In this document: one piece after another, positions 60,254-60,902 of the stretch
Numbering within the stretch: the first letter of the stretch is position 1
Layout of the letters: the number at the start of each line of letters is the position of its first letter
Program-made: the position numbers and the translations under genes
Assembly: GCF_024300625.1 (NCBI RefSeq)
Contig: NZ_CP101322.1
Coordinates: 2,245,992 to 2,309,991, forward strand
DNA length: 64,000 nt
Direction: 5' to 3'
DNA from: Halovivax gelatinilyticus
Lineage (GTDB): Archaea > Halobacteriota > Halobacteria > Halobacteriales > Natrialbaceae
The notes under the pieces: generated by a model
Database searches by the model: none
Seen by the model: only the letters and a program-made list of their open reading frames with translations
Told to the model about the DNA's origin: nothing

Positions 60254-60270
60254 TATATCCACTAGATATA
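60254..60270 (+). promoter_or_regulatory. TATA box inside an inverted repeat
   Basis: TATATC-CACTA-GATATA (6-bp arms, 60254-60270) with the TATA (TAGATATA, 60263-60270) in its right half. About 27 bases downstream begins the leader RNA. Looks like an operator overlapping the core promoter. Confidence 0.5.
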
Positions 60271-60296
60271 AGCCCCAACGGCCCCTCTCTCGACGT

Positions 60297-60390
60297 GGAA
60301 GCCACTCGCTCTGGCGTACCAGAGTCGGCAGAAATGCCTCGGGTGTTGTAGCACCCGAGACGTGGCTTCCGAAACCCGCCTGAGGGTTTT
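60297..60390 (+). ncRNA. Cloverleaf-like leader RNA with terminator hairpin
   Basis: A closing stem GGAAGCCAC/GTGGCTTCC (60297-60305 / 60362-60370, 9 bp) encloses three hairpins. The first is CTCTGG-CGTA-CCAGAG (60309-60324), the second GGCA-GAAA-TGCC (60327-60338, a GNRA tetraloop), and the third CTCGGGTG-TTGTAG-CACCCGAG (60338-60359). The base at 60338 is shared, so one pair must open. Then AAACCC-GCCTGA-GGGTTTT (60372-60390) forms a terminator-like hairpin just before the ATG at 60400. Its right arm also contains GAGGG, which might be the ribosome binding site. A TATA lies about 27 bases before the stem. This is the layout of a cis-regulatory leader: a folded aptamer-like part, then a control hairpin, then a gene. 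Not a tRNA: no T-loop or D-loop consensus. Confidence 0.6.
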
Positions 60391-60399
60391 ACGCAAGCC

Positions 60400-60747
60400 A
60401 TGACACGCTATACACCAGACCACCATAAAGCCCGCGCACAGCCCGCCTATCCACGATACACGGTGACTACCAAGTTTCTCGATTCGAGACACTCCATCAC
60501 CGACACCCCAGCCATCCACACAACCTCCGGCCCCACCGAAGACAGCCTCTTCGTGCCCGTCGCCCGCCCGACCGACCCGTACCGGTACGGCATCGTCTCG
60601 CGAGAGCACTACCCACCGTGTCCGAGTTGCACCGAACCAGTGATCACAATCAGAACACTCGGGCCGCACCGACACACCGCGGATCCCTGCGGCTGCGATC
60701 TCGACGCCCACACGGTCGCCCACTTTCTGCGAGGGCCAAGCAGATGA
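60400..60747 (+). CDS. Zinc-ribbon protein with CxxC...HxH...CGC, 115 aa
   Basis: The C-terminal 45 residues carry CPSC, then GPHRH, then PCGC, a Cys/His zinc-binding pattern. The first 65 residues are hydrophilic and Thr-rich with no named domain. The next gene encodes a short paralog of this zinc part. ATG at 60400, following the cloverleaf leader; the last bases overlap the next ATG (ATGA). May bind DNA or RNA; function unknown. Confidence 0.55.
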   Translation: MTRYTPDHHKARAQPAYPRYTVTTKFLDSRHSITDTPAIHTTSGPTEDSLFVPVARPTDPYRYGIVSREHYPPCPSCTEPVITIRTLGPHRHTADPCGCDLDAHTVAHFLRGPSR

Positions 60748-60902
60748 CCGACACACCGGACCTAGAGAACTGCCCGTTCCCGCTGTGTCCGTTCTGTGAG
60801 ACGCCGGTCGTCAGTATCACGTCGACGGGGCCACACTCCCACTCGGCCAGTCCCTGCGGCTGTGGACTCACCCTCACGGACGTCCAGGAGATGCAGGGAT
60901 AG
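60744..60902 (+). CDS. Short zinc-ribbon paralog, 52 aa
   Basis: MTDTPDLENCPFPL, then CPFC, GPHSH and PCGC, the same pattern and spacing as in the gene upstream (CPSC, GPHRH, PCGC), so a tandem duplication. It lacks the N-terminal extension. Translationally coupled to the first gene by a four-base overlap. Confidence 0.6.
   Translation: MTDTPDLENCPFPLCPFCETPVVSITSTGPHSHSASPCGCGLTLTDVQEMQG

Follow-up and report, generated by a model that had tools for sequence, protein, structure and literature searches.

The window analysed here, a stretch of 64,000 nucleotides from Halovivax gelatinilyticus (contig NZ_CP101322.1), carries a compact set of hairpins between a TATA box and two zinc-ribbon ORFs, which raises the question of what this RNA is and what it does for the genes behind it. 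Folding of the leader (60297–60390; all features on the plus strand) returned the described structure as the minimum free energy (MFE) structure, with every stem of the initial annotation found in its place. The TATA box (60263–60272) lies 30 nt before P1, a 9-bp closing stem whose 5′ strand GGAAGCCAC (60297–60305) is the predicted mRNA 5′ end and whose 3′ strand GUGGCUUCC (60362–60370) is the strand common to both states of the switch proposed below. P1 encloses the P2 hairpin CUCUGG-CGUA-CCAGAG (60309–60324), which is optional and missing in many copies of the RNA, the P3 hairpin GGCA-GAAA-UGCC with a conserved GAA (60327–60338), and the P4 hairpin CGGGUG-loop-CACCCG (60340–60357). The P5 hairpin GAAACCC/GGGUUUU (60371–60390) sits between P1 and the start codon, with nine bases separating its end at 60390 from the ATG at 60400. 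The MFE of the leader is −55.9 kcal/mol (z = −6.5); dinucleotide shuffles (n = 200) averaged −36.0 kcal/mol (SD 3.1), and none of them folded as well. The opposite strand gave a weaker signal (z = −4.9).

Comparison of the leader and its ORFs with the own genome by blastn revealed three near-complete paralogues and many short leader-only matches. A covariance model built from 17 own-genome copies (R1) found 25 copies there below 1e-7, and a second model that includes distant copies (R2) gave 27 matches, of which two represent a single locus present at both contig ends; the genome holds about 26 leader copies. The own contig has an identical stretch of at least 9.7 kb near each of its ends (L310, G000:C1:11000-21000, and L311, 3672000-3682000), probably the untrimmed overlap of a circular chromosome, and leader copies near the contig ends are counted twice because this stretch is repeated. 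The flanks of every copy have the same layout, namely TATA box, P1 5′ strand, variable part, P3 and P4, followed by the P1 3′ strand, P5, about 6–10 bases and the ATG. R1 matched 61 of 292 haloarchaeal genomes, Natrialbaceae accounting for 50, with up to at least 13 matches per genome, and R2 matched 20/170, 26/146 and 4/26 genomes of three other families; the RNA is also present in six other haloarchaeal families, more thinly than in Natrialbaceae. Among the matches listed for named genomes, the exact core pattern was confined to Natrialbaceae (Halovivax, Halopiger, Natrinema, Natrialba, Natronoglomus, Natrarchaeobius, Natronorubrum, Halostagnicola and others), and it had no match in viral contigs. 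When the window was searched against Rfam 15, tRNA-Thr alone exceeded its curated score, and the best sub-threshold match to the leader was glmS (14.9 bits against a cut-off of 37, E = 0.19). A literature search, with most subscription papers outside its reach, yielded no description of such an RNA, an absence that is not proof of novelty. These searches agree with the earlier statement that no catalogued family resembles the leader, and, judged by sequence comparison, it is a member of a large uncatalogued haloarchaeal RNA family.

The constant core of the family is a three-way junction of P1, P3 and P4 (100 Natrialbaceae copies), because P2 is optional and is an extra hairpin of the window's type; the cloverleaf of the initial annotation therefore describes this locus, but not the conserved core. 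The P1 consensus consists of an outer GGAAGCC/GGCUUCC and an inner GUCUC/GAGAC type. The GNRA loop GAAA noted earlier is present locally, but what is conserved is a GAA on the 3′ side of this loop, which in L047 is instead bulged out beneath a longer P3 stem. In P4, a near-invariant GUG/CAC closes a loop of 6–7 nt that differs in almost every paralogue, with 98 distinct loops in 158 copies. In 43 diverse copies, 96.4% of P1 and P4 cells were paired compared with 86.4% after shuffling, with 44 double-changed cells against 8 expected (0 of 500 shuffles), and this covariation was lost on sliding by one column. Swap tests of P1 and P3, in which relatedness was ignored, gave 0/500 each, and part of the P3 excess is built in because the P3 arms were picked as best fit. 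RNAalifold on alignment A3 recovered P1 and P4 alone, with little covariation because the Natrialbaceae copies are too alike. A P5 stem of at least five pairs occurs in 51% of Natrialbaceae copies, compared with 15% after shuffling, in 48 distinct forms. Across lineages, P1, P3 and P4 thus form a conserved, covarying structured domain of the kind found in riboswitches, and the covariation analysis supports the initial annotation's view of a selected leader RNA.

Other features of the leader proved local or were set aside. The T tract after P5, which had been listed as a feature, is not conserved among the copies, and with no conserved U tract after the hairpin, P5 was ruled out as an intrinsic terminator or attenuator. 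The inverted repeat at the TATA box (60254–60259/60265–60270), also listed earlier, is absent from a paralogue that is 91% identical over the leader; the repeat TATATC-CACTA-GATATA (60254–60270) surrounds the TATA box here and is not kept in this close relative, and an operator palindrome around the TATA box was ruled out by close paralogues without it. A P6 hairpin inside ORF1 was rejected as a universal element (64% in the other lineages taken together compared with 59% after shuffling), its 5-bp stem being enriched in Natrialbaceae (87% compared with 56%). Pairing of the P4 loop with the downstream mRNA was rejected as well, since the complementarity of 4.16 showed no excess over the 4.23 of swapped loops.

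In 90 of 98 upstream regions from Natrialbaceae, a TATA-like element precedes P1 by 30 nt (median 30, IQR 30–30). The usual archaeal spacing from TATA box to transcript start is about 25–30 nt. Because the distance from TATA to P1 fits this spacing, the transcript is likely to begin at P1, and the RNA is predicted to be the extreme 5′ end of the mRNA. The start near 60293 proposed in the initial annotation is reasonable in the form of a start near 60293–60297, given that the 30-nt distance holds in nearly all copies. The copies L229, L231 and L232, which come from other families, have a palindrome such as CCAATTGCTACGTAGCAATTGG after the TATA region and just ahead of P1, possibly an operator or a 5′ hairpin.

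To what use the leader is put is suggested by its second pairing. The start-codon region AAGCCAUG (60395–60402) is complementary to CGUGGCUU (60361–60368) of the P1 3′ strand, with which it can pair around P5 in an alternative helix. In an arm-swap test of 169 copies (127 distinct combinations, relatedness ignored), the mean duplex energy between the start region and the P1 3′ strand was −9.84 kcal/mol, compared with −7.34 kcal/mol for swapped arms (0/2000), and the same 0/2000 was obtained within Natrialbaceae and within the other lineages separately. The copies fall into about 25 P1 classes, most with matching starts and several differing at single bases. The P1 3′ strand GGCUUC goes with the start GAAGCCAUG, GGUCUUC with GAAGACCAAUG, GGGUUC with GAACCCAUG, GUGCUUU with AAAGCAUG, UGUCU with AGACAUG, GGCUGU with ACAGCCAUG, and AGGUUC, at the own-genome HRAMP locus discussed below, with GAACCUAUG. 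In L047 the P1 3′ strand is GGUUUCC and the P1 5′ strand is still GGAAGCC, forming G-U pairs; the start there is AACCAUG, so that it tracks the 3′ strand rather than simply mirroring the 5′ strand.

P1 and the AUG-hiding helix are mutually exclusive, and their energies, computed for 1 M NaCl and 37 °C and not for the haloarchaeal cytoplasm, differ by a median of 2.1 kcal/mol (10–90% range, −8.9 to +2.6). With the P1 5′ arm kept free, the AUG was fully paired in 69 of 100 copies and partly in 21. The arm swaps thus reveal the mutually exclusive pairing of a riboswitch-type expression platform, for which the signal in fixed columns is weak: in alignment A5 the alternative helix was paired in 72.9% of cells compared with 70.9% after shuffling (2/500 shuffles), and some slid versions equalled it on covariation. 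This weakness arises because the register of the helix relative to the AUG shifts between lineages. The alternative helix is just 5–6 bp long in copies with GUUGCCAUG, and a mismatch breaks it in at least six divergent copies (L239, L250, L252, L256, L276 and L322). In other lineages, removal of the 5′ arm clearly lowered the computed AUG accessibility in just 8 of 39 copies, and in the full window transcript with 40 coding bases the AUG was computed to be already mostly paired with downstream bases.

Building on the observed structure, covariation, fixed promoter spacing, exclusive pairing and downstream genes, we consider that the leader probably acts as a cis-acting translational switch at the mRNA 5′ end. 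In the first state, the transcript 5′ end would pair with the P1 3′ strand and close the junction with P3 and P4 (and P2 here), leaving this strand unavailable to the start codon. In the second state, the P1 3′ strand would pair across P5 with the bases at or just before the start, burying the AUG. Expression of the first ORF would be set by a signal acting to stabilise or break P1, namely a protein or ligand that reads the GAA of P3 and the GUG/CAC hairpin of P4; the ATGA overlap would extend this control to the zinc-ribbon ORF. We infer that the two states both occur in cells, that control acts on translation, and that a signal of some nature exists. Candidates for what flips the switch are a protein (zinc-ribbon or other), a ligand (zinc, for example) and another RNA.

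The proposed switch resembles translational riboswitches and ribosomal-protein leaders in having a conserved junction at the 5′ end and a closing-stem strand shared with a helix that hides initiation. It differs from them in hiding the AUG instead of a Shine-Dalgarno sequence, in heading a multicopy regulon of zinc-ribbon genes, and in having no Rfam match. Haloarchaea often do without a Shine-Dalgarno site, and hiding the start codon would suit such organisms. The archaeal leaders of S15, eL15 and L4 (PMC7247131) precede ribosomal-protein genes, whereas the zinc-ribbon/CxxC ORFs downstream of this leader match no ribosomal-protein family. According to a 2021 paper (PMC8241225), the Thermococcus fluoride riboswitch is the only experimentally determined natural riboswitch of archaea; the present RNA would give archaea a large family of switch-like leaders, found about 26 times in a single genome and spread across the haloarchaea.

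The leader is followed by ORF1 (60400–60747, 115 aa), in which an N-terminal leader-peptide motif is fused to a C-terminal CPxC...PCGC zinc ribbon, and by ORF2 (60744–60902, 52 aa), a further CPxC...PCGC zinc ribbon with an ATGA overlap with ORF1. The closest relative of ORF1 is carried by the Halovivax asiaticus copy L175, and peptide and ribbon are fused in the window's type and in L048, L049, L143 and L157. The first ORF of most Natrialbaceae copies is a short, strongly basic peptide (median 41 aa, pI 11.6) with the conserved beginning M-x-x-[YL]-x-x-x-R-x-K-x-x-A-R, and the second is an acidic zinc ribbon (pI 4.6) of the CPxC-x-PCGC or CYRC-x-CxDC class, the overlap between them being mostly ATGA. 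Lys10 is almost always encoded by AAA and Ala13 by GCA, and in this beginning third codon positions vary hardly more than first and second ones; the opening of the first ORF therefore seems to be constrained as RNA too. The association of leader and zinc-ribbon genes made in the initial annotation holds across the family, since a ribbon of these patterns lies downstream in 74 of 92 loci and at none of 2,195 control positions. None of the ORFs of the window or of the copies reached a Pfam or NCBIfam cut-off. CPxC and PCGC of ORF2 are invariant in 20 homologues, and its AlphaFold model (pLDDT 80.5) consists of three short strands and a helix, for which a PDB fold search gave no significant match; a scan of genome contigs with the pattern of the 115-aa ORF protein confirmed nothing. 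In Halopiger djelfimassiliensis, the copies L108, L127 (interrupted by masked bases) and L163 have longer first ORFs (MIAYPLPRHKRLARHS...), and no zinc ribbon was found downstream of them. Mre11 was ruled out as a third operon gene by a relative (G208) that has mre11 without the module upstream.

Among known gene pairs, brz-brb and bp4-OE2447F of Halobacterium salinarum (PMC3184054) likewise combine a small basic ORF with a zinc-finger ORF in one transcript; bp4 (45 aa, pI 9.4) overlaps OE2447F (62 aa, pI 4.2) by 7 bp. No such leader is described for these pairs, and the likeness noted here is one of arrangement; the OE2447F transcript starts just about 135 nt upstream, a span filled by bp4 (PMC3184054). 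The C(P)XCG micro-proteins of Haloferax volcanii (PMC11241148, PMC10716476) are similarly very small and carry CPxCG-type motifs, but no leader is mentioned for them (PMC11241148), and the ORFs here match no NCBIfam family.

These gene contents bear on the signal of the switch. With a zinc-ribbon ORF behind most leaders, paired with a basic peptide, it is possible, and put forward tentatively from sequence, that the leader is bound by a product of its own operon, either the zinc-ribbon protein or the short peptide, with feedback on translation. The very diverse P4 loops on a near-invariant GUG/CAC stem could then address each paralogue separately, and HRAMP operons, too, begin with a gene for a CxxC protein; however, distant lineages keep the RNA core while their downstream proteins differ (SWIM, PadR-like and a 101-aa family), and the loop diversity may be neutral. 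Such autoregulation is compatible with the switch and would name its signal. So would a ligand or ion, for example zinc, acting as one signal for all copies of a zinc-protein regulon, which we regard as a rather unlikely but compatible reading. A single conserved core in all paralogues and families, targets that are mostly CxxC/zinc-type proteins, and the switch-like expression platform are consistent with such a riboswitch, although no ligand pocket was identified, few unpaired bases besides the GAA of P3 are invariant, and some targets are not zinc proteins.

The leader RNA also touches a second gene set. The distant copies L237 and L257 precede a gene that weakly matches the RAMP superfamily PF03787, below its cut-off, and that agrees with the haloarchaeal RAMP (HRAMP), an array-less CRISPR derivative, as characterised in PMC8730458. 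A HRAMP Cas7-like gene is present in 77 of 292 genomes. In 17 of 20 fetched Cas7 loci, six of them preselected for known adjacency and one (L311) a duplicate of L310, the RNA lies 435–1149 nt upstream on the same strand; the own genome is included (copy at G000:C1:16180-16270), and 10 of the 13 loci that were not preselected have it. These loci were assigned to HRAMP from their Cas7-like gene and from inspection of the neighbouring ORFs by eye, a CxxC/HNH-like ORF among them, and no Cas5 was confirmed. The HRAMP operons (L310–L329; own genome, G000:C1:14741-16271) have an RNA copy in front and a CxxC gene first. From this adjacency, the RNA might be imagined as the RNA component or specificity element of HRAMP, with Cas7/Cas5-like proteins binding the leader or a processed piece and the zinc-ribbon copies forming a regulon descended from or controlled by HRAMP. 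This is improbable: four genomes of the same genus carry at least 13 RNA copies each and no HRAMP Cas7, which contradicts an obligate partnership, and most Natrialbaceae copies lead stand-alone zinc-ribbon ORFs with no HRAMP link. What the available part of PMC8730458 describes as HRAMP is proteins only, while the RNA heads most HRAMP operons tested here. As a translational switch, the leader would offer a handle on two poorly understood gene sets, HRAMP, itself a CRISPR derivative with no established mechanism, and the small zinc-ribbon proteins that haloarchaeal genomes commonly encode, and both questions are directly testable in genetically tractable haloarchaea. Beyond the initial annotation, the analysis thus adds the exclusive pairing of the P1 3′ strand and the start, the roughly 26 copies, the short basic ORF with its ATGA overlap, and the HRAMP link.

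It is very improbable that the leader is a mobile element, MITE-like or derived from an IS200/IS605 end, with palindromes that just look regulatory. Many copies are dispersed in one genome, copy number differs between relatives, and one relative has mre11 without the module upstream; but the stems covary at low sequence identity, zinc-ribbon ORFs are consistently downstream, and nearly all copies lie at a constant distance from TATA box and ORF start. An IS605/omegaRNA or MITE origin was put aside because the copies are located 5′ of small ORFs behind a TATA box at fixed promoter spacing, whereas an IS200/IS605 end or TnpB omegaRNA would lie 3′ of tnpB. In one own-genome copy (L018/L052, G000:C1:867682-867790), which is possibly decaying, the P3 loop contains a long inserted palindrome, AAAAGAGCGCCGCTCTTTT, and the ATG is replaced by ATA. 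Just downstream of another leader/zinc-finger module lies a CRISPR array (L026:2101-3697, G000:C1 about 1331100-1332700) with at least 22 copies of the repeat GTTTCAATTCCGTTGTGGATTTTCTCCCTGCTGCGAC.
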